Shown here: positions 32,900 through 44,099 of the stretch, piece by piece
Layout of the letters: the number at the start of each line of letters is the position of its first letter
How positions within the stretch are numbered: position 1 is the stretch's first letter
NCBI RefSeq assembly: GCF_004364155.1
Contig: NZ_SOAZ01000002.1
Span: 1-64,000, forward strand
Length of the DNA stretch: 64,000 nt
Direction of reading: 5' to 3'
Source: Fonticella tunisiensis
GTDB lineage: Bacteria; Bacillota; Clostridia; Clostridiales; Caloramatoraceae
Made by a program: the position numbers and the translations under genes
The notes under the pieces: model-generated
Seen by the model: the letters and a program-made list of their open reading frames with translations, nothing else
Told to the model about the DNA's origin: nothing
Database searches by the model: none

Positions 32900-33931
32900 A
32901 TGAAAAAGGTTATTTCAACCTTGCTGGCCGGAGCTTTAATATCAACAATGCTTTCAGGCTGCGGCAGCACAAATACCTCAAGTGGAGGAGGTTCATCCGA
33001 CAAACCGCCTGTAGGTGTTGCAATTTACAAATTTGACGACACCTTTATGACAGGAGTACGTAATGCTATTTCCGATGCTGCAAAGGACGTGGCAAACGTT
33101 GAAATCGTTGACAGCCAGAATTCACAGTCAACTCAGAACGATAAGGTAGACCTCTTTATTACAAAAAAGGTAAAGGCCCTTGCAATTAACCCTGTTGATC
33201 GTACAGCAGCAGGTGCAATCATTGATAAAGCGCAGAAAGCTAACATACCTGTTGTATTCTTTAATCGTGAACCTCTTCCAGAGGATATGAAAAAATGGGA
33301 TAAGGTTTACTACGTTGGTGCGAAGGCAGAAGAATCCGGAACCATATCAGGACAGCTTATTGTTGACTACTGGAAGTCACACCCCGAAGCCGATAAGAAT
33401 AAGGACGGAGTTTTACAGTATGTTATGTTAAAGGGAGAGCCGGGACATCAGGATGCAGAACTTCGTACAAAGTATTCAATAAAGGCCATTGAAGATGCAG
33501 GTATAAAGGTTGAAAAGCTTGCTGAAGATACAGCTATGTGGGATAGAGTAAAGGGACAGGACAAGATGCAGACATTCCTTGCTGCACATGGAGATAAGAT
33601 TGAAGCTGTTCTTGCAAACAATGACGATATGGCACTTGGAGCTATTGAGGCTTTAAAGGCTGCTGGATATTTTAAGGATGGCAAGTACATTCCTGTTGTT
33701 GGTGTTGATGCAACTGCACCTGCACTTCAGGCACTTGAAGAAGGAACGCTTCTTGGAACCGTATTAAACGACGCCAAGAACCAGGGTAAGGCAACATTAA
33801 ACATTGCAGTTGCACTTGCAAAGGGACTGACGCCATCAAAGGATAACGTTGGATATGATATTACAGATGGAAAATATGTATGGATACCTTATAAGAAGAT
33901 AACAAAGGAAAATATAAACGATGCTAAATAA
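32900..33931 (+). CDS. mglB: Galactose/glucose-type sugar ABC substrate-binding lipoprotein
   Basis: A 343-aa MglB-like lipoprotein. The signal ends at LSGC (Cys about 21), followed by a Ser/Gly linker. Binding-fold motifs: GVAIYKFDDTFMTGVRNAI, VKALAINPVDR, IPVVFFNREP, GEPGHQDAELR and NNDDMALGAIEALK, very close to galactose-binding MglB including the NREP and NNDDMA signatures. It captures sugar outside the membrane for MglA/MglC. GGGGGGATC precedes ATG. The 234-bp AT-rich gap upstream should hold the promoter and YesN sites. Confidence 0.9.
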   Translation: MKKVISTLLAGALISTMLSGCGSTNTSSGGGSSDKPPVGVAIYKFDDTFMTGVRNAISDAAKDVANVEIVDSQNSQSTQNDKVDLFITKKVKALAINPVDRTAAGAIIDKAQKANIPVVFFNREPLPEDMKKWDKVYYVGAKAEESGTISGQLIVDYWKSHPEADKNKDGVLQYVMLKGEPGHQDAELRTKYSIKAIEDAGIKVEKLAEDTAMWDRVKGQDKMQTFLAAHGDKIEAVLANNDDMALGAIEALKAAGYFKDGKYIPVVGVDATAPALQALEEGTLLGTVLNDAKNQGKATLNIAVALAKGLTPSKDNVGYDITDGKYVWIPYKKITKENINDAK

Positions 33932-33952
33932 TGAGAAATAAATTATCTATGG

Positions 33953-33993
33953 AAAGCAAGGGGATAATGAGCGCTGTACTCAACCCTTGTTTT
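33953..33993 (+). terminator. Intra-operon attenuating hairpin between mglB and mglA
   Basis: AAAGCAAGGG (33953-33962) pairs with CCCTTGTTTT (33984-33993) with one G-T pair. It probably lowers transporter-component expression relative to the binding protein. Confidence 0.6.
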
Positions 33994-34049
33994 CTAATAT
34001 ATTAAAATATATAAAAATGCCATAAATGTCAAAGGCAGGAGGCGGTAAC

Positions 34050-35567
34050 TTGAGGGAAACCGAATTCGTACTTGAAATGAATAATATCTCTAAGGAATTT
34101 CCCGGGGTAAAGGCACTCGATAACGTAACCTTAAAGGTACGCCCAGGAACTGTACATGCCCTTATGGGAGAAAACGGAGCAGGAAAATCAACCCTTATGA
34201 AATGCCTTTTCGGGATATATAAACAGGATTCAGGGGACATAATCCTGGATGGTGAAAAAGTTGAAATAAATAACTCAAAAATTGCCCTTGATAATGGAAT
34301 TTCAATGATACACCAGGAGCTTCACCCGGTGCCCCTAAGAAGTGTAATGGAAAACATATGGCTTGGAAGATTTCCTATACGTAGATTAGGACCATTAAAA
34401 TTTGTTGATCATAAAAAAATGTATAAAGATACGGAGAAGCTCTTTAAAGAGCTTAACATGGATATAAAGCCCGATACAATAGTAGGAAGTATGTCTGTTT
34501 CAAAGATTCAGATGATGGAAATTGCAAAGGCTGTATCCTATAATTCAAAGGTTATAATAATGGATGAGCCAACCTCATCATTAACCGAAAACGAAGTAGA
34601 ACATTTATTTGCAATAATCCATAAATTGAAAAGCAAGGGAGTTGCAATCATTTATATATCTCATAAAATGGAAGAAATACTTAAAATTTCTGATGAAGTA
34701 ACCATAATGCGTGATGGCAGGCGTATAGGCACATGGCCCGCTTCAGAGCTTACAACCGATATGATAATATCTAAAATGGTAGGACGAGAACTTACAAACA
34801 GGTTTCCGGAGAGGAGAAATACACCTGGTGAGGTGTTACTTAAGGTTGAAAAACTTACATCACCCAACCCCAGGTCCTTTAAAGATGTGTCCTTTGAACT
34901 TAGAAGGGGTGAAATACTTGGAATAGGGGGGCTTGTTGGCGCCCAGCGTACGGAGCTTGTAGAGGCAATATTTGGTTTGAGAGCTGTGCAGTCTGGACAA
35001 ATTTATATAAACGGAAAGGAAGTTAAAATTAAATCTCCAATAGATGCTAAAAACCACAGGATTGCCCTTCTTACTGAAGAAAGGCGTGCAACAGGGATAA
35101 TACCCGTTTTATCAGTCCTTGAGAACACACTTATTGCCAATCTAAAGAACTATGTAAAGCCCTATTTTCTTCTAGATGAGAAGAAGAGGAGGGAAGATGG
35201 AGAAAAAATTATAGAAAGGCTTAAGGTAAAGACGCCTTCTTCAAATACGCTTATAAAGGATCTTTCAGGTGGAAATCAGCAGAAGGTGTTAATTGCAAGA
35301 TGGCTTCTTACCGAGCCTGAAATATTAATACTTGATGAGCCTACCCGTGGTATTGATGTTGGTGCAAAATATGAAATATATACTATAATGGCAGACCTTG
35401 CAAAGCAGGGTAAAAGCATTATTATGATATCATCTGAAATGCCCGAGCTTATGGGAATGTCTGACAGGATAATGGTTATGTGCGAAGGACGTCTTTCAGG
35501 GTTTGTTGATGGAAAAAATGCAACAGAGGAAGAAATAATGCGACTTGCTACGCGGTTTATTGCCTAA
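34050..35567 (+). CDS. mglA: Sugar ABC transporter ATP-binding protein (tandem NBDs)
   Basis: A 505-aa CUT2-family ATPase with two nucleotide-binding halves. First: Walker A GENGAGKST (about residue 39) and MDEPTSSLTENE, with the signature position reading MSVSK. Second: EILGIGGLVGAQRTEL (the usual degenerate Walker A), signature LSGGNQQK and LDEPTRGIDVG. Start TTG 34050 follows AGGAGG at 7 nt; an upstream in-frame ATG (34026) overlaps poorly. It energises import with MglC. Confidence 0.92.
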   Translation: MRETEFVLEMNNISKEFPGVKALDNVTLKVRPGTVHALMGENGAGKSTLMKCLFGIYKQDSGDIILDGEKVEINNSKIALDNGISMIHQELHPVPLRSVMENIWLGRFPIRRLGPLKFVDHKKMYKDTEKLFKELNMDIKPDTIVGSMSVSKIQMMEIAKAVSYNSKVIIMDEPTSSLTENEVEHLFAIIHKLKSKGVAIIYISHKMEEILKISDEVTIMRDGRRIGTWPASELTTDMIISKMVGRELTNRFPERRNTPGEVLLKVEKLTSPNPRSFKDVSFELRRGEILGIGGLVGAQRTELVEAIFGLRAVQSGQIYINGKEVKIKSPIDAKNHRIALLTEERRATGIIPVLSVLENTLIANLKNYVKPYFLLDEKKRREDGEKIIERLKVKTPSSNTLIKDLSGGNQQKVLIARWLLTEPEILILDEPTRGIDVGAKYEIYTIMADLAKQGKSIIMISSEMPELMGMSDRIMVMCEGRLSGFVDGKNATEEEIMRLATRFIA

Positions 35568-35583
35568 GGGGGGAGGATTATAG

Positions 35584-36621
35584 ATGAGCAATTTAAAATT
35601 AAAAAATGATGAAGTAAAAAATGCCATAAAACCCAAGAAGATAAAGGAGTTAGTATCACAAAATGCAATATATGTAGTTCTTGTAGTTCTCATAGTAGCC
35701 ATTGCAGTAGTAAATCCCAGATTTATATCATTTGCAACTTTTAAAGATATATTGCTTCAAAATTCAACGAGGGCTATTATAGCTTTAGGTATGTCATTTA
35801 TACTTATAACGGGAGGAGTTGACCTTTCAGCAGGGCGTGTCGTTGGACTTGCAGCGGTTCTCTCTGCCTCAATGCTTCAAAAGGCGGATTATTCAAGAAG
35901 ATTTTTTCCTGATATGCCGAATTTGCCACTATGGCTGCCCATTGTAATTGCTGTGGCAGCGGGACTTGCATCAGGCCTTCTGAATGGATTTATTATTTCA
36001 AAATTTAATGTTCCACCGTTTATTGCAACGCTTGGAACAATGGTAATTGTATATGGAGCCAATTCCATATACTTTGACCTGCCTCCAAACGACTCACAGC
36101 CTATAGGTGGGCTTAGAAGTGACTTTACCAATCTTGGTTCGGGTTCTATCCTTTCAATACCTATTATAATATTGATAGCTATTATTGTAACACTTATTGT
36201 GTGGGTAATTCATAATAAGACACGGCTTGGCAAAAACATGTTTGCGATAGGTGGAAATGCTGAGGCTGCGAAGGTTTCAGGAATTAACGTCGGGCGTACC
36301 CTTTTGATTTTGTACGGAATTGCAGGTGCACTCTTTGCACTGGGAGGAGTCCTGGAGGCAGCAAGAACAGGCGGTGCAACCAATAACTATGGCAACATGT
36401 ATGAGCTTGATGCCATTGCAGCCTGCGTCGTTGGCGGGGTGTCAAACCTTGGAGGTATAGGAACAGTACCTGGAGTAATAACTGGCGTTTTAATATTTGG
36501 AGTAATAAACTATGGTTTAACATATATCAATATAAACCCATACTGGCAGCTTATAATAAAGGGTCTTATCATTGTAGCGGCTGTTGGATTTGATATTAGA
36601 AAGTATCTGGCTAGAAAGTAA
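35584..36621 (+). CDS. mglC: Sugar ABC transporter permease
   Basis: A 345-aa CUT2 permease with about eight to ten membrane segments. Family motifs: ALGMSFILITGGVDLSAGRVVGLAAVLSA, NGFIISKFNVPPFIATLGTM, GLRSDFTNLGSGSI, IGGNAEAAKVSGI, and AACVVGGVSNLGGIGTVPGVITGVLIFG. It is 16 bp after mglA with GGGGGGAGG, completing mglBAC. Substrate probably galactose or glucose, judged from MglB. Confidence 0.92.
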   Translation: MSNLKLKNDEVKNAIKPKKIKELVSQNAIYVVLVVLIVAIAVVNPRFISFATFKDILLQNSTRAIIALGMSFILITGGVDLSAGRVVGLAAVLSASMLQKADYSRRFFPDMPNLPLWLPIVIAVAAGLASGLLNGFIISKFNVPPFIATLGTMVIVYGANSIYFDLPPNDSQPIGGLRSDFTNLGSGSILSIPIIILIAIIVTLIVWVIHNKTRLGKNMFAIGGNAEAAKVSGINVGRTLLILYGIAGALFALGGVLEAARTGGATNNYGNMYELDAIAACVVGGVSNLGGIGTVPGVITGVLIFGVINYGLTYININPYWQLIIKGLIIVAAVGFDIRKYLARK

Positions 36622-36630
36622 AATTCGTTT

Positions 36631-36663
36631 AAAAAAGATGCAGGTTTATCTGCATCTTTTTAT
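36631..36663 (+). terminator. Terminator of the mglBAC operon
   Basis: AAAAAGATGCAG pairs with CTGCATCTTTTT across a 6-nt loop, followed by TATTT. Confidence 0.9.
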
Positions 36664-36842
36664 TTACCTTGACTTTTTCGTTTTTAGTATTGCCAGGGCC
36701 TTAGGTAAATATGCAGATTTTGAAGGAAAATGTGAACTGTCCCTTGATTATTATAAATTCTTACTTTATTAAGGCATTTGTGTATATGATAGTCCCTTTA
36801 GGAGAAAACTTTATTTAGTGAAACTATAAGGGAGGTATAAAA

Positions 36843-38756
36843 ATGAGTGAAACCATTTTGGAAAGAACTGAGGGACGCATAAGCTATCATGATTCCGTGG
36901 AGGAGATGGTAAAAAGAATAAGGGAAGATGGAATGTCTAACGTCTTTGATAGATGGGCCTCTCAGGAAAAAATAAGATGTAAGTTCTGCCTTGAGGGAAT
37001 GAGCTGTCAGCTTTGTTCTCAAGGACCCTGCAGGATAAACCTTAAGGGTGAACAGCAAAAGGGAGTGTGCGGGATTGGACCAGACGCTATGGCAATGAGA
37101 AACATGCTCCTTAGGAATATAATGGGGGCAGGTACATATGGACACCATGCATATGAGGCATTCAGGACCTTAAAGGCGACAGGAGAGGGAAAAACTCCTT
37201 TTAAAATTAAAGATGTTGATAAGCTAAAGTGGATGTGTGAAAAGGTAGGGATTAACATTAACCAGGATATAAACAGGATGGCTGTAGAGCTTGCAGACTT
37301 TTTAATGACAGAGATGAGAAGGGGTTCAAATGAATCCAGCGTAATGGTTGATGTTTTTGCACCCAGGAAGAGAAAACAGATCTGGAAGGACCTTGGGATA
37401 TATCCTGCTGGTGTTGAACATGAGGAGCAAAATGCTGTGGCAAGCTGTCTTACAAATGTAGATGGAGATTATGTTTCCCTTGCTAAAAAGGCCTTAAGGC
37501 TTGGACTTTCAACTATATATACAGCGCAGATAGGGCTGGAAATGGTGCAGGATATACTATTTGGAACTCCAACTCCCCACGAGGTAAATGTAGACCTTGG
37601 AATTATGGATCCGGATTATGTAAATATAGTATTTAACGGACATCAGCCCTGGGCAGGAGTTGCTACACTTCAAAAAGCAAGAACAAAGGAGGTTCAGGAC
37701 AGGGCAAAGGCTGCAGGTGCAAAGGGTTTAAGAATAGTAGGTTCAATAGAAACAGGACAGGAGCTTCTTCAAAGGTTTGAGATTGATGATGTTTTTGTTG
37801 GGCTTATGGGTAATTGGCTTGCAATAGAACCTCTTCTTGCAACAGGTACAGTTGACGTATATGCAATGGAGGAAAACTGTTCACCGCCTTCAATAGACCA
37901 TTATGCAGAAAAGTATCAGGTAACTTTAGTTGGTGTAAGCACAATAATAGGAATACCTGGACTAAACCACATGATTCCATATCATCCTGATAAAGTAGAT
38001 GAAATGGCAGATAAGCTTATAGATCTTGCAATCGAAAATTTCAAAAAGAGAAAAGATAAGGTAAAACCTATGGTTCCAAAACATATTCAAAGGGCAATAT
38101 CAGGTTTTTCAACTGAAGCATTGCTTAATGCCCTTGGAAATAAGCTTGATCCACTTGTTGATGTTATAGCAGCAGGCAAAATAAAGGGAGTCGTAGCCCT
38201 TGTAAACTGTTCAACGCTTAGAAACGGGCCACATGACTGGAATACAATAAATCTTGTGAAGCAGCTAATTAAGAAGGATATTTTAGTTGTGGCGGGAGGA
38301 TGTGGAAACCACGGACTTGAAGTTGCGGGGCTCTGCAATTTCGATGCAATAGAGATGGCAGGACCGGGGCTCAAGGAAGTATGCAATATGCTTAAGATTC
38401 CTCCTGTGTTAAGCTTTGGAACCTGCACAGATACAGGAAGAATTTCCATGCTTGTTACAGAGATTGCAAACCATCTTGATGTTGATATTCCTGACCTTCC
38501 AATAGCAGTAACTGCACCTGAATGGATGGAGCAAAAGGCAACAATAGATGGGGTATTTGCCGTTGCATATGGCGCATATACACATCTATCTCCAACTCCA
38601 TTTTTAACAGGAGGCAGAGATCTTGTTAAGCTTCTCACAGAGGATGTGGAAGGTCTTACAGGAGGCAAGATTGTACTTGGAGATGACCCTGTGGAGGCTG
38701 CAGACAACATAGAGGCTCACATAATAAGTAAGAGAAGGAAATTAGGGCTTGGATGA
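36843..38756 (+). CDS. CooS-family protein with altered active-site ligands (CooS-V-like)
   Basis: A 637-aa homologue of anaerobic CO dehydrogenase catalytic subunits. N-terminal Fe-S ligands are Cys46, Cys49 (CX2C, D-cluster position) and Cys55, Cys58, Cys63, Cys76 (B-cluster). Of the six C-cluster ligands of CODH-II, His267 (NGHQP), Cys346 (ENCSPPS), Cys456 (VNCST), Cys487 (GGCGNHG) and Cys528 (GTCTDTG) are present. The usual GICCTGNE reads GSIETGQE, so the Cys295 equivalent is Glu303 and its neighbour is Ile302. The HEPVLSE region is also changed. No cooC, cooF or acs gene is nearby. In Carboxydothermus a CooS-V lacking a canonical cysteine was reported to hold an Fe-S-O cluster and not to oxidise CO. 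AAGGGAGG precedes ATG. Confidence 0.85.
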   Translation: MSETILERTEGRISYHDSVEEMVKRIREDGMSNVFDRWASQEKIRCKFCLEGMSCQLCSQGPCRINLKGEQQKGVCGIGPDAMAMRNMLLRNIMGAGTYGHHAYEAFRTLKATGEGKTPFKIKDVDKLKWMCEKVGININQDINRMAVELADFLMTEMRRGSNESSVMVDVFAPRKRKQIWKDLGIYPAGVEHEEQNAVASCLTNVDGDYVSLAKKALRLGLSTIYTAQIGLEMVQDILFGTPTPHEVNVDLGIMDPDYVNIVFNGHQPWAGVATLQKARTKEVQDRAKAAGAKGLRIVGSIETGQELLQRFEIDDVFVGLMGNWLAIEPLLATGTVDVYAMEENCSPPSIDHYAEKYQVTLVGVSTIIGIPGLNHMIPYHPDKVDEMADKLIDLAIENFKKRKDKVKPMVPKHIQRAISGFSTEALLNALGNKLDPLVDVIAAGKIKGVVALVNCSTLRNGPHDWNTINLVKQLIKKDILVVAGGCGNHGLEVAGLCNFDAIEMAGPGLKEVCNMLKIPPVLSFGTCTDTGRISMLVTEIANHLDVDIPDLPIAVTAPEWMEQKATIDGVFAVAYGAYTHLSPTPFLTGGRDLVKLLTEDVEGLTGGKIVLGDDPVEAADNIEAHIISKRRKLGLG

Positions 38757-38780: not shown

Positions 38781-38813
38781 AATAGCCTCTGCATAGAGAG
38801 TAGAGGTTATTTT
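38781..38813 (+). terminator. Terminator of the cooS-like gene
   Basis: AATAGCCTCTGC (38781-38792) pairs with GTAGAGGTTATT (38800-38811), then a T run. Confidence 0.85.
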
Positions 38814-39116: not shown

Positions 39117-39417
39117 AATAATATTTCGCTAAAGGGAATAATAAGTTAATATGATAATGACGATGACGAAGACAAAACTATCGGTAAATCAATCACAGAG
39201 AGCCGGGTATGCTGAGAGCCGGTATTGATTTGATAGATAATGATCACTTCAGAGTCGTATAGCCGAAGCTTAGTAGGCTATAACGTGGGGGCCCCGTTAA
39301 AAGGCCAGGGTTTTATTGAACCTGATGAGATAATTATCGTGAGATAATTATGAAGTAGAGTGGTACAGCGTTTTATACGCCTCTACATGTATATTTATAC
39401 ATGTAGAGGCCTTTTTA
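39117..39417 (+). promoter_or_regulatory. T-box leader, probably isoleucine-specific
   Basis: A tRNA-sensing transcription attenuator upstream of the branched-chain amino-acid transporter. Stem I features: AGAGAGCCGGG and GCTGAGAGCCGG (distal loop region), and the specifier ATC (39243-39245) directly before ACTTCAGAG. The T-box sequence AGTAGAGTGGTACAGCG (39354-39370) can pair with CTCTAC of the following terminator. Terminator: GCCTCTACATGTATA / TATACATGTAGAGGC (39379-39410) then T5. Uncharged tRNA-Ile would favour antitermination and raise expression of livKHMGF. Specifier assignment is by position; the other elements are clear. Confidence 0.88.
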
Positions 39418-39446: not shown

Positions 39447-39530
39447 TTGGGAATTTCCACTGGACAGGATGAAGATGGTATTATTACTGGCATTTTATTA
39501 AATAAAAAAATATTTGATGGAAAGGGTTGA
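39447..39530 (+). CDS. Possible 27-aa upstream open frame before livK
   Basis: TTG 39447, with AAGGGGGG 6 nt upstream, opens a 27-codon frame (GISTGQDEDGIITGILLNKK, then IFDGKG) that stops 4 bp before the livK ATG. The good ribosome site and proximity would allow translational coupling with livK. It contains two Ile-Ile/Ile-Leu pairs but no strong regulatory codon run. No homologue recognised. Confidence 0.35.
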   Translation: MGISTGQDEDGIITGILLNKKIFDGKG

Positions 39531-39534
39531 GAAT

Positions 39535-40701
39535 ATGAGTAAAAAGGTGTCTTTATTCATGTCACTGATTCTCATGTTAAGCTTATTTGCGGGGTGTTCT
39601 TCAAAGGCCACAGGCGGAAACTCGGATAAAATAAAAGTAGGACTTAACTATGAGCTTTCAGGAAACGTTGCAACATACGGACAGGGCCTTGTGGAGGGCA
39701 TTGAACTTGCATTTGAAGAGATAAATAAAAATAGCGGAGTTCTCGGAAAACAGATAGAGATGATTAAAGTTGACAACAAATCAGACAACGCTGAGGCTGC
39801 AAATGTATCAACAAGGCTTGCAACAAGGGATAAGGTAGTTGCAATTTTAGGAGCTGCAACCTCAGGAAACACAAAGGCTGCTACTCCTGCAGCAATGCAA
39901 AATAAAGTTCCATTGATATCCGCTTCAGCCACTGCAGACGACGTAACAGTGGACAGCAACGGAAAGGTTAGAGAATTTGTATTCAAAACCACATTTAGTG
40001 ATTCCTTCCAGGGGGTTATGATGGCTAACTTTGCTTATAACGATTTAGGACTTAAAAAGGCAGCAGTTTTAATCGATACAACCAGCGATTACAGCAAGGG
40101 GCTTTCAAAGAATTTTCAGGATACCTATAAAAAACTTGGGGGAACTATAGTAACTGAAGAGGCCTATCAGGCTAAGGAAACTGACTTTAAGGCCGTTTTA
40201 ACAAAGATTAAGGGAACTAATCCAGATGTACTGTTTGTGCCGGGATATTATGAAGAGGTTGGACTTATAGTTAAACAGGCAAGAGAACTTGGACTTAACG
40301 TACCTATACTTGGAGGAGATGGATACGATTCTCCAAAGCTTGCTGAGATAGCAGGAAGGGATGCATTGAACAACGTATACTACTCAAATCATTATTCATC
40401 GCAGGACAACACCCCGGAGGTTGTAGAGTTCAAGGAGAAATTTAACAAAAAGTATGGAAAGGATCCCGATGCCTTCAATGCATTAGGTTACGACCTGGCA
40501 TATTTCCTTGCAGATGCTCTTAAGAGAGCGGGGGCTGCAGATCCTGTAAAGCTTAAGGATGCACTTGCCGCAACAAAGGATTTTGAAGGAGTAACAGGAA
40601 AAATAACAATAGATGATAAGCATAATCCTGTAAAATCCATTACGATAATTCAAATGAAAGATGGAAAACCAACCTTCTTAAAGAAGCTTGATCCACAATA
40701 A
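39535..40701 (+). CDS. livK: Branched-chain amino-acid ABC substrate-binding lipoprotein
   Basis: A 388-aa lipoprotein of the LivK/LivJ family (type 1 binding fold). Lipobox LFAGC with Cys at about residue 20. Motifs: KVGLNYELSGNVATYGQG, ILGAATSGNTKAATPAAMQNKVPLISASATADDVT (ligand-binding Ser/Thr), FVPGYYEEVGLIVKQARELG and YDLAYFLADALK. ATG 39535 is chosen over 39514, since the lipoprotein signal starts there. It is controlled by the upstream T-box, which agrees with Ile/Leu/Val import. Confidence 0.92.
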   Translation: MSKKVSLFMSLILMLSLFAGCSSKATGGNSDKIKVGLNYELSGNVATYGQGLVEGIELAFEEINKNSGVLGKQIEMIKVDNKSDNAEAANVSTRLATRDKVVAILGAATSGNTKAATPAAMQNKVPLISASATADDVTVDSNGKVREFVFKTTFSDSFQGVMMANFAYNDLGLKKAAVLIDTTSDYSKGLSKNFQDTYKKLGGTIVTEEAYQAKETDFKAVLTKIKGTNPDVLFVPGYYEEVGLIVKQARELGLNVPILGGDGYDSPKLAEIAGRDALNNVYYSNHYSSQDNTPEVVEFKEKFNKKYGKDPDAFNALGYDLAYFLADALKRAGAADPVKLKDALAATKDFEGVTGKITIDDKHNPVKSITIIQMKDGKPTFLKKLDPQ

Positions 40702-40707
40702 TAATAC

Positions 40708-40738
40708 GAATTCTCAGGTGTTTTTCACCTGAGAATTC
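40708..40738 (+). terminator. Intra-operon hairpin between livK and livH
   Basis: GAATTCTCAGGTG (40708-40720) pairs perfectly with CACCTGAGAATTC (40726-40738). Only a weak T run follows, so partial attenuation or 3'-end protection of livK mRNA is likely. Confidence 0.65.
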
Positions 40739-40783
40739 AATAATTTTCTATAACATCAATTAAAAATAAAAAGGAGTGATGGG

Positions 40784-41668
40784 ATGAAAGAATTACTTCA
40801 GCAGGTTATAAACGGATTATCCCTTGGAAGCATATACGCCCTAATTGCCCTTGGATACACTATGGTGTATGGAATAATAAATTTAATCAATTTTGCACAC
40901 GGTGATATATATATGGTAGGGGCATACGTTGGTTTTGCCGTAACAACATCTCTTCACCTTGGATTTTTCCCATCCCTTGTTATATCAATGGTAGTGTGCA
41001 GCATACTCGGAGTTATTATTGAAAAGGTTGCATATAAGCCAATACGAGGATCTAGCAGAATAGCTGCGCTGATTACTGCAATTAGCGTTTCTCTTTTTCT
41101 TGAATATGGAATGATGTATTTTGTAAAGGCAGAAACAAGGACTTTTCCAAATGTGCTGGGGAAAAACAGCTTAAAGCTTTTAGATGGAAGTGTAGTAATT
41201 GATTATAAAAACATTTATATTGTTGCAATAACCATAATTTTAATGGTGGCACTTCAATATATAATTCGTAGAACAAAAGCAGGAAAAGCAATGAGGGCTG
41301 TATCTTTGGACAGGGAAGCAGCACAGTTAATGGGAGTAAACGTTGACAGGACAATATCCTATACCTTTGCAATAGGTTCCGCCCTTGCAGGAGCAGCGGG
41401 GGTTCTTGTTGGAGTTTATTATACAACTATCAATCCTCTTATGGGCATAGTACCCGGGCTTAAGGCATTTATAGCAGCAGTTATCGGTGGAATAGGAGTA
41501 ATACCCGGGGCTGTATTTGGAGGTTTATTCCTTGGAATGATAGAAACGATGGTCAGTGCATATGGTGGTTCATTATACAAGGACGCAGTTGCCTTTGCCA
41601 TACTAATTCTTGTTCTTTTACTAAGACCAAGTGGACTCTTAGGGCGCAATATAAAGGAAAAGGTATAG
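40784..41668 (+). CDS. livH: Branched-chain amino-acid ABC permease LivH
   Basis: A 294-aa inner-membrane permease with about eight hydrophobic segments. The family start LLQQVINGLSLGSIYALIALGYTMVYGIINLINFAHGDIYMVGAYVG is clear, as are AVSLDREAAQLMGVNVDRTI (ATPase-contact loop) and PGLKAFIAAVIGGIGVIPGAVFGG. AAAGGAGTGATGGG precedes ATG. Second structural gene of the T-box-controlled livKHMGF operon. Confidence 0.94.
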   Translation: MKELLQQVINGLSLGSIYALIALGYTMVYGIINLINFAHGDIYMVGAYVGFAVTTSLHLGFFPSLVISMVVCSILGVIIEKVAYKPIRGSSRIAALITAISVSLFLEYGMMYFVKAETRTFPNVLGKNSLKLLDGSVVIDYKNIYIVAITIILMVALQYIIRRTKAGKAMRAVSLDREAAQLMGVNVDRTISYTFAIGSALAGAAGVLVGVYYTTINPLMGIVPGLKAFIAAVIGGIGVIPGAVFGGLFLGMIETMVSAYGGSLYKDAVAFAILILVLLLRPSGLLGRNIKEKV

Positions 41669-41678
41669 GGGTGATAAT

Positions 41679-42644
41679 GTGAATACGAATTTGTTTAGAA
41701 GAAGAAATATATTGAGTTTGTTTATCATAGTTTTTCTATATATTGCAGTTCAATTAATGAGCAATTTGGGTATTATAGATTCATATATAATGCTTAATTT
41801 GATAATCATTGGTATTAACATAATACTTGCAGTAAGCCTAAACCTTATAACGGGATTTACAGGACAGTTTTCTCTTGGACATGCAGCCTTTATGTCCATA
41901 GGTGCCTATGCCTCAGCAATTGCAACGACAAAATTAGAACAGCCATTTATAGTTGGAATACTGATGGCTGCTGTTTCCGCTGCTGTGGCTGGTGTTATAA
42001 TAGGCATTCCAACCCTGAGATTAAAGGGAGACTACCTTGCAATTGCAACCCTTGGCTTTGGGGAAATAGTAAGAATTATAGGACTTAACGTTGACTACGT
42101 AGGAGGAGCGACGGGATTAAATGATATACCCCAGTATACAAACTGGACATGGATATATTTTATGGTCATTGCAACTGTTTTAATTATAAAGAATTTCATT
42201 AACTCCTATCATGGAAGGGCATGTATAGCAATAAAGGAAGACGAAATTGCAGCAGAGGCAATGGGAGTTAATACTACCTATTATAAAGTACTTGCCTTTA
42301 CAATTGGGGCACTGTTTGCAGGAATTGCAGGAGCACTTTATGCAAACTATTTTTATTTTATAAAGCCTGATTCCTTTGGATTTATGAAATCCATTGACAT
42401 ACTTGTAATTGTCGTATTTGGAGGAATGGGAAGTATACTGGGATCTATAGCTGGAGCTGTGGTTTTATCAATTATATCAGCATTTCTTCAAAGCATACCG
42501 GAACTTCGCATGGTGGTTTATGCAGTAATCCTCTTTTTAATAATGGTATATAGGCCTAATGGACTTCTTGGAAAATTTGATTTAAAGGATTTGAAGCTTT
42601 TTAGAAAAGGAGGGAAAGTAAATGCCGGTATTAAGGGTGAGTAA
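41679..42644 (+). CDS. livM: Branched-chain amino-acid ABC permease LivM
   Basis: A 321-aa permease with about nine membrane segments. Motifs: NLITGFTGQFSLGHAAFMSIGAYASA, TLRLKGDYLAIATLGFGEIVRI, AIKEDEIAAEAMGVNTTYYK (coupling loop), and VVFGGMGSILGSIAGAVVL. It starts at GTG 41679 after a short AGGGGTGAT site, 11 bp after livH, and overlaps livG by 23 bp. Confidence 0.94.
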   Translation: MNTNLFRRRNILSLFIIVFLYIAVQLMSNLGIIDSYIMLNLIIIGINIILAVSLNLITGFTGQFSLGHAAFMSIGAYASAIATTKLEQPFIVGILMAAVSAAVAGVIIGIPTLRLKGDYLAIATLGFGEIVRIIGLNVDYVGGATGLNDIPQYTNWTWIYFMVIATVLIIKNFINSYHGRACIAIKEDEIAAEAMGVNTTYYKVLAFTIGALFAGIAGALYANYFYFIKPDSFGFMKSIDILVIVVFGGMGSILGSIAGAVVLSIISAFLQSIPELRMVVYAVILFLIMVYRPNGLLGKFDLKDLKLFRKGGKVNAGIKGE

Positions 42645-43392
42645 TTTATCGATGTCCTTCGGAGGAATAAAGGCTTTGTCGAATATAAATCTCGAGGTTG
42701 AAAGAGGAGAAATAATAGGGCTTATTGGTCCAAATGGGGCGGGTAAAACAACCTTTTTTAACCTTTTAACGGGCATTTACTCTCCAACGGAAGGAGAAAT
42801 AGAATATAACCTCAAGAAAAGGGGAACATCAAAAAATATAAAGCCCCACAAGATCATAGGCTATGGAATTTCAAGAACCTTTCAGAATATAAGACTATTT
42901 AAAAACATGACGGTTTTAGAAAATGTACTCATAGGATTTCATAACAATTTTAGATATGGTTTAGGGGCATCAGTTTTAAGGCTTCCTTTCTTTTATAAAA
43001 ATGAAAAAGAAGCATATATTGAGGCCATGAACCTATTAAGTATATTTAGTCTTTCAGATAAGGCAGATGAATTTGCAGGCAACCTTCCCTACGGAGAGCA
43101 GAGAAAACTTGAAATCGCAAGGGCCCTTGCTGCGGAACCTCAGCTTCTTCTTCTTGATGAACCTGCTGCAGGCATGAACCCAAGGGAGACACAGGAGCTT
43201 ATGGAACTTATAAAATGGATAAAGGATAGGTTTAATTTAACAATTATACTTATAGAACATGACATGTCTTTAGTTATGAATGTATGTAAAAGAATATTCG
43301 TATTTGACTATGGAATACTTATAGCTCAGGGTACTCCACAGGAGATTCAAAACAATCCTGCAGTTATTAAGGCTTATCTTGGAGGTGAATGA
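42622..43392 (+). CDS. livG: Branched-chain amino-acid ABC ATPase LivG
   Basis: A 256-aa ATPase: Walker A GPNGAGKTT (about residue 34), SRTFQNIRLFKNMTVLENVL typical of LivG, signature region LPYGEQRKLEIARALA and Walker B LLLLDEPAAGMNPRE. AAAGGAGGG precedes ATG. It overlaps livM at its 5' end and livF at its 3' end, so these are translated as a coupled set. Confidence 0.94.
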   Translation: MPVLRVSNLSMSFGGIKALSNINLEVERGEIIGLIGPNGAGKTTFFNLLTGIYSPTEGEIEYNLKKRGTSKNIKPHKIIGYGISRTFQNIRLFKNMTVLENVLIGFHNNFRYGLGASVLRLPFFYKNEKEAYIEAMNLLSIFSLSDKADEFAGNLPYGEQRKLEIARALAAEPQLLLLDEPAAGMNPRETQELMELIKWIKDRFNLTIILIEHDMSLVMNVCKRIFVFDYGILIAQGTPQEIQNNPAVIKAYLGGE

Positions 43393-44099
43393 TGATGATT
43401 GAACTTATAAATGTGAATGTATATTATGGCATTATTCATGCACTGAAGGGTATAAGTTTTCATATAGATGAAGGAGAAATAGTTACAATAATAGGTGCCA
43501 ACGGAGCAGGAAAGACAACAACACTTAAGGCTATATCAGGAATCCAGAGGATAAAAAGCGGCAGCATAATGTTTAATGGGAAGGATATAAGCAAATCTTC
43601 AGCCACGGATATAGTGGGCCTTGGTATTTCACATGTACCCGAAGGAAGAAGGATATTTTCAAACATGACAGTTATGGAAAATTTGGAGATGGGTGCCTTT
43701 TTAAGAAAGGACAAGGCTGAAATAAAAAAGGACTTCAACAAAGTTTTTGAGCTGTTTCCAAGGCTTCTCGAGAGAAAGAACCAGCTTGCGGGAACCCTGT
43801 CTGGAGGTGAACAGCAGATGCTTGCAATAGGGCGTGGACTAATGTCAAAGCCAAAGCTTCTACTGCTTGATGAACCTTCCATGGGCCTTGCACCAATAGT
43901 TGTTAAAGAAATATTTGAAATAATAAAGGATATAAATAAAGAGGGAACAACAATACTTCTCGTTGAACAGAACGCCAACATGGCTCTCCAGACGGCAGAC
44001 AGGGCATATATTATAAGGAACGGAGAAATAGATATAGAAGGCAGGGCAGAGGACCTTCTAAAGGATGAAACAGTAAGGAAGGCCTATCTTGGAGGGTAA
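43392..44099 (+). CDS. livF: Branched-chain amino-acid ABC ATPase LivF
   Basis: A 235-aa ATPase paired with LivG: Walker A GANGAGKTT, SHVPEGRRIFSNMTVMENLEMGAF, signature LSGGEQQML and LLLLDEPSMGLAP. Three consecutive ATGs (43389, 43392, 43395) follow GGAGGTGA; 43392 or 43395 give better spacing. The livG stop is embedded in this start region. Last gene of the operon. Confidence 0.93.
   Translation: MMIELINVNVYYGIIHALKGISFHIDEGEIVTIIGANGAGKTTTLKAISGIQRIKSGSIMFNGKDISKSSATDIVGLGISHVPEGRRIFSNMTVMENLEMGAFLRKDKAEIKKDFNKVFELFPRLLERKNQLAGTLSGGEQQMLAIGRGLMSKPKLLLLDEPSMGLAPIVVKEIFEIIKDINKEGTTILLVEQNANMALQTADRAYIIRNGEIDIEGRAEDLLKDETVRKAYLGG

Follow-up and report, generated by a model that had tools for sequence, protein, structure and literature searches.

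The question raised by this locus is whether a gene that family models name as a CO dehydrogenase catalytic subunit encodes an enzyme of CO metabolism at all. The gene lies at positions 36843 to 38756 on the + strand of the window, by which is meant the whole 64,000-nucleotide stretch of DNA that was analyzed. Its reading frame is intact, and the product of 637 amino acids is assigned to Pfam PF03063 and scores 905 bits on the NCBIfam CO dehydrogenase model TIGR01702 (cut-off 478). On the basis of reading frame, family models, alignment and tree, the gene is designated cooS-V (clade D, structural group D-1).

A sequence-only reading had proposed that Glu303 stands at the position of an active-site cysteine, Cys295, that the other five canonical C-cluster ligands are visible, and that annotation as a functional CO dehydrogenase is likely wrong. 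The codon at 37749 to 37751 (+) was read as GAA. Phmmer alignments with CODH-IV (6elq) and with 6t7j pair Glu303 with the second Cys of the GICCTG/GMCCTG motif, which is the position of Cys295 in CODH-II and of Glu295 in CooS-V from Carboxydothermus hydrogenoformans. Alignment with the latter protein, performed as that reading had proposed, gave Glu and no alternative Cys at this position. The C-cluster set of Ni,Fe-CODH (His plus five Cys) is incomplete, with His267, Cys346, Cys456, Cys487 and Cys528 present and Cys295 changed to Glu, and the acid–base pair is only half kept, catalytic Lys565 being retained and the His being replaced by Tyr99. The CX2C D-cluster was also borne out. Translation and family alignment place Cys46-X2-Cys49 of the bridging cluster and B-cluster residues Cys55, 58, 63 and 76 at 36978 to 37070 (+); with Ser54 at the second usual Cys, the D-cluster motif reads Cys46-X2-Cys49-X5-Cys55, the “type III” motif of Inoue 2019. 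Two residues had gone unmentioned, Tyr99 and Glu563 (codon 38529 to 38531, +). The latter aligns with Glu556 of CooS-V, a cluster ligand (PMC9311411), and corresponds to the second carboxylate ligand of HCP type.

CooS-V (PDB 7b7q) is the best solved relative of the window protein at 870 bits, the next solved CODH chain scoring 434, and 381 of 624 aligned residues (61%) are identical. Paired residues (window protein/CooS-V) are His267/His259, Glu303/Glu295, Asn345/Asn337, Cys346/Cys338, Cys456/Cys449, Cys487/Cys480, Cys528/Cys521 and Glu563/Glu556, so that besides Glu303 all hybrid-cluster ligands (His267, Cys346, 456, 487, 528 and Glu563) are kept. Structural group D-1 is defined by the change of Cys to Glu at the first C-cluster Cys, a C-X2-C-X5-C D-cluster and Tyr in place of the acid–base His (Inoue 2019; PMC6344411), and all of these are found in the window protein. 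It also has the Glu two residues ahead of the catalytic Lys, and no difference from this group was noted in the protein. Membership in the CooS-V family is close to certain. This is a known family, described in 2019 and 2022, and the substitution, although correctly observed, represents a new member, not a new observation or an oddity. The comparison to CooS-V, offered originally as an analogy, is firmer than that, since the same Cys has been lost to the same Glu.

CooS-V contains an Fe/S/O cluster without Ni, and neither CO oxidation nor CO2 reduction has been seen with it (PMC9311411). The same study reports hydroxylamine reduction at 0.13 per second, a hydrogen bond from Asn337 to a cluster water and, for the C295E variant of CODH-II, Ni deficiency and lack of activity with CO (PMC9311411). 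The cluster, fold and lack of CO activity are thus published for CooS-V, and we infer them for the window protein. Because the hybrid-cluster ligands are conserved, an Fe/S/O cluster and no CO chemistry would be expected, and we predict with high confidence that the window protein lacks CO activity. The resemblance of group D-1 to HCP was noted by Inoue 2019 (PMC6344411); Hcp (TIGR01703) would share with the window protein a hybrid Fe/S/O cluster with a Glu ligand, in addition to PF03063. The window protein differs from Hcp in having CODH-type length and a D-cluster and in scoring only 46.3 bits on TIGR01703 (cut-off 360.8). With the Ni,Fe-CODHs (CODH-II, CODH-IV and AcsA) it shares fold family, B-cluster and five C-cluster ligands, and it differs from them in Glu303, Tyr99, Glu563, the altered D-cluster motif and an identity of only ∼30–40%.

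Relatives were collected by scanning one genome per GTDB species. This yielded 243, of which the best 80 are 76–87% identical to the window protein and come from Clostridium, Desulfosporosinus, Terrisporobacter, Acetivibrio, Mobilitalea and others. An alignment of 155 sequences with at least 50% identity, including the window protein and CooS-V, was assembled with the addition of whole-genome searches; it contains a few duplicate rows, since some genomes were reached by two routes. Glu is present at 303 in 155 of 155, so the residue is not there by chance. Cys46, Cys49, the four B-cluster cysteines and Tyr at 99 are likewise invariant, and position 54 is Ser or Thr throughout. In a tree of 69 sequences (a quick tree, LG+G4, no bootstrap), a kind of analysis that the sequence-only reading had also proposed, the window protein lies inside a Glu group that forms one branch with SH-aLRT 100, and Glu arose once. 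The next groups out keep Cys at the 295 position and already have Glu563, except for one protein with Asp (GSMDTGQE; L115, G278:C14:17590-19452). This sister-group CooS, whose genome also carries a CooS-V, apparently represents an independent loss of the ligand at this position. Another deviating sequence is a CooS-V (L220, G464:C21:59435-61324) that has Glu303 and has lost all four hybrid-cluster cysteines (to Ser, Gly, Ser and Ser), with Glu563 changed to Asp; its ORF and its D- and B-cluster cysteines are intact.

The gene had been described as standing alone without cooC, cooF or acs, and none of these was found among its neighbors in the window. Terminator-like hairpins were located by scanning at 36632 to 36661 (+), where one follows mglC and divides it from cooS-V, and at 38781 to 38811 (+), after cooS-V. 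Because these hairpins flank both sides, transcription as a single-gene unit is probable. The genes upstream encode a sugar transporter of mglBAC type, for which MglC exceeds its cut-off and MglB and MglA fall short of theirs; downstream are a T-box leader and liv-type transporter genes. An Rfam scan of the cooS-V leader gave nothing at gathering score, and two sub-threshold sRNA hits overlap the hairpin after mglC. Across 80 loci with flanks of up to 10 kb, neighbors recur only sporadically outside the genus, and none is conserved there.

The host genome (3.1 Mb, 99.5% complete) contains no CdhC/acetyl-CoA synthase domain and no second CooS gene other than a relic, which is a point absent from the sequence-only reading. 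It does contain a separate true HCP gene (L003, G000:C2, about 132,970–134,650; 797 bits on TIGR01703), ∼95 kb from cooS-V on the same contig. When all candidates were scored, 22 of 50 other CooS-V genomes had no second CooS (E≤1e-20), several of the 22 being draft metagenome assemblies. An order-wide search gave ∼28 of 61 with CooS-V alone, with only five candidates scored for some genomes. The claim in the literature that the group is always accompanied by other CODHs therefore no longer holds, and the frequent absence of other CooS genes shows that CooS-V is retained independently of CO metabolism. This lone occurrence, together with the forespore-type promoter described below, appears to be what is new about the locus.

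Short words enriched upstream of cooS-V align as a two-part element ∼30 bp before the start codon, consisting of TACATA or GCATA, a spacer, and then GGGAAAACTT, GAGCAAACTT or, in other lineages, GGACATATTA. This element, which the sequence-only reading had not mentioned, looks like a forespore sigma-F/sigma-G promoter; promoters of these two factors are closely alike (PMC3789822). To score it, a two-block matrix was seeded from the textbook consensus and trained on SASP and spoIIR promoters only (59 sequences). On 71 cooS-V upstreams the mean score was 5.40, versus 2.66 in Markov-shuffled copies (sd of mean 0.20). Scores of at least 8 were found in 29 of 116 cooS-V regions, versus 4.6% of 646 upstreams of neighboring genes from the same loci (Fisher p=1e-10) and 0 of 22 other CooS genes; A+T content is alike in the cooS-V and control sets (68% and 69%). 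The form [AG]CATA-N17-22-AAACT, which was picked after seeing the data, is present in 35 of the 116 cooS-V regions and absent from all 646 controls. The strict B. subtilis sigma-F consensus matches only 2–3 of the 116, and its -10 part alone matches 23 of 116 versus 20 of 646 controls. Note that the sequences are related, and the p-values therefore suggest more independent events than there are.

In the window, the putative forespore promoter is TGTATA-N14-GGAGAAAACTT at 36781 to 36811 (+), 31 bp before the ATG. Its score of 7.63 is modest alone, being reached by ∼3% of the null; it is the enrichment across the family that carries the argument. A scan of the + strand from the mglC terminator to the cooS-V ATG gave no sigma-70-type promoter, and no palindromic regulator site upstream of the gene stood clearly above shuffles. 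Members with 50–70% identity, taken as a set, are not above controls (p=0.49), with 5 of 25 scoring >9, and a locus identical to Carboxydothermus CooS-V scores 2.45. Forespore control would thus apply to only some of the family. The window protein differs from CooS-V itself in this promoter, in being the sole CooS of its genome, and in belonging to a mesophile-type subfamily whose members are ∼75–87% identical among themselves. A stronger forespore-like site, TGCATA-N14-TGGCAATACTA with a score of 10.3, lies in the same intergenic region on the - strand, from window position 36715 downwards; it faces back towards mglC, and no gene is known behind it.

Association with sporulation was assessed at the level of the phylum using SpoIVA. 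An association with the sigma-F gene within the order had been considered and was uninformative, nearly all genomes there carrying that gene. In the phylum sample, SpoIVA accompanies CooS-V or its close sister group in 73 of 75 genomes, versus a presence in 264 of 323 genomes that have neither (p=1.4e-4, uncorrected for kinship), and in a separate set of CooS-V genomes it is found in 31 of 34. The exceptions in these two sets are a metagenome assembly and two genomes that are only 80% and 61% complete. Because spore-formers are the majority of the phylum sample, the association is weak once relatedness is considered. Group D-1 is also present in Methanosarcina, which does not sporulate, according to work cited in PMC6344411, so sporulation cannot be its only setting. 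A literature search, with supplementary tables beyond its reach, found CooS-V in no spore data set.

Our reading as a whole, to which we assign a probability of roughly 80%, is that the gene encodes a CooS-V hybrid-cluster protein that performs no CO chemistry and is made in the forespore of spore-forming clostridia. It draws on the sequence, ligand set, family membership, lack of another CooS or ACS and promoter enrichment obtained here. The window protein would be a homodimeric iron–sulfur protein of CODH fold in which a redox-morphing [4Fe-3S-nO] hybrid cluster, rather than a Ni,Fe C-cluster, is bound by Glu303, His267, Cys346, Cys456, Cys487, Cys528 and Glu563, and for this reason it would not interconvert CO and CO2. 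The entry route for electrons would be a bridging [2Fe-2S] cluster, built from Cys46 and Cys49 of both subunits, together with the [4Fe-4S] B-cluster; a small substrate would be reduced at the reduced hybrid cluster, hydroxylamine serving only as a slow surrogate. In spore-forming clostridia the single-gene unit seems to depend on sigma-F and/or sigma-G for transcription in the forespore, which judging from the promoter matches we consider somewhat favored. The protein would then probably act in the spore, developing or dormant, for instance by removing reactive nitrogen or oxygen species, a protective role that we infer along with forespore expression. Since a true HCP is encoded in the same genome, any role with hydroxylamine or NO would be shared. 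More generally, we lean towards the view that in endospore-forming clostridia CooS-V is a forespore hybrid-cluster reductase of CODH fold that belongs to the sigma-F/sigma-G regulon, is made for or packaged in spores, and is independent of CO metabolism. The forespore-type promoter ties the question of its role to a particular cell type and stage of development and makes it simple to test.

A competing account, which we regard as possible and hold only tentatively, is that the same hybrid-cluster protein is a stress reductase produced in vegetative cells and that the upstream element belongs to another regulator or to sigma-B. The idea of sigma-B comes from C. difficile, where the cooS gene CD0174 is strongly induced by this factor together with nitrosative and oxidative stress genes (PMC7494833); CD0174 sits in an operon with two oxidoreductases and is probably of another clade. 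The sigma-B consensus WGWTT-N13-17-[G/T]GGTWA (PMC7494833) mismatches both GGGAAAACTT and GGACATATTA, and sigma-B was set aside for the cooS-V promoter because of this misfit. Repressor- or Crp-type palindromes are not enriched upstream of cooS-V, and a matrix derived from SASP and spoIIR genes only is what detects the element. Vegetative expression would agree with the lack of a strong forespore site at the Carboxydothermus-identical locus and with the expression of cooS2 of C. ljungdahlii/autoethanogenum in growing cells (PMC4895105). The latter gene is relevant to CO activity as well. C. autoethanogenum cooS2 (CAETHG_3899) is, like the window gene, an orphan cooS, although its species also has two true CODHs. 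Inoue et al. place a genetically tested C. autoethanogenum CODH in group D-1 (PMC6344411), and from its orphan status this is very probably cooS2. Inactivation of cooS2 did not significantly affect autotrophic growth on CO, and cooS1 and cooS2 are unable to oxidize CO without acsA (PMC4895105), which fits a protein without CO activity.

These acsA mutant data, the absence of Ni and CO activity in CooS-V, which has the same residues, and the behavior of CODH-II C295E (PMC9311411) together make it very improbable that the window protein is a true Ni,Fe-CO dehydrogenase tolerating Glu for Cys295; the locus is also without CooC, CooF and ACS, and the genome without ACS. What speaks for such an enzyme is the TIGR01702 score well over cut-off, the five of six C-cluster ligands with catalytic Lys565, and Methanosarcina genetics that hint at a part for group D-1 in CO oxidation, as cited in PMC6344411. 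Still less probable is that the gene is a decaying, functionless paralog kept by chance. It does stand alone with no conserved neighbor, and the second copy in the genome is already a relic, but strong selection is indicated by invariant ligands together with identities of 75–87% across Clostridium, Desulfosporosinus and others. For CooS-V as a hybrid-cluster protein, a practical consequence is that the CO dehydrogenase name carried by many clostridial members is likely wrong and may mislead surveys of CO users; Glu was checked in part of the 243 relatives from the species-level scan.

Several minor observations were made at this and related loci. The relic in the host genome (L002, G000:C3:141435-141602) corresponds to a CooS-V C-terminus with 66% identity over 56 residues and three stops; a CRISPR-like repeat, GTTTCAATTCCAATATGGTTTGATTAAAAC, is present in two copies ∼1.2 kb away. 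The T-box leader (RF00230) at window positions 39154 to 39387 scores 97.7 bits (gathering 93) and precedes the liv-type branched-chain amino acid transporter genes at 39514 to 44099. The gene order mglB-mglA-mglC-cooS-V, in which the stretch ahead of cooS-V is window 32900 to 36842, recurs with a gap of ∼200–240 bp in C. peptidivorans, Clostridium sp. BSD9I1 and C. pascui (L042, L052 and L056), three species that sit in another family. An ArsR/CadC-like regulator is encoded within 5 kb downstream of cooS-V at six loci (L026, L030, L031, L043, L053 and L054), accompanied at four of them by a heavy-metal P-type ATPase, both being named by sequence appearance only.
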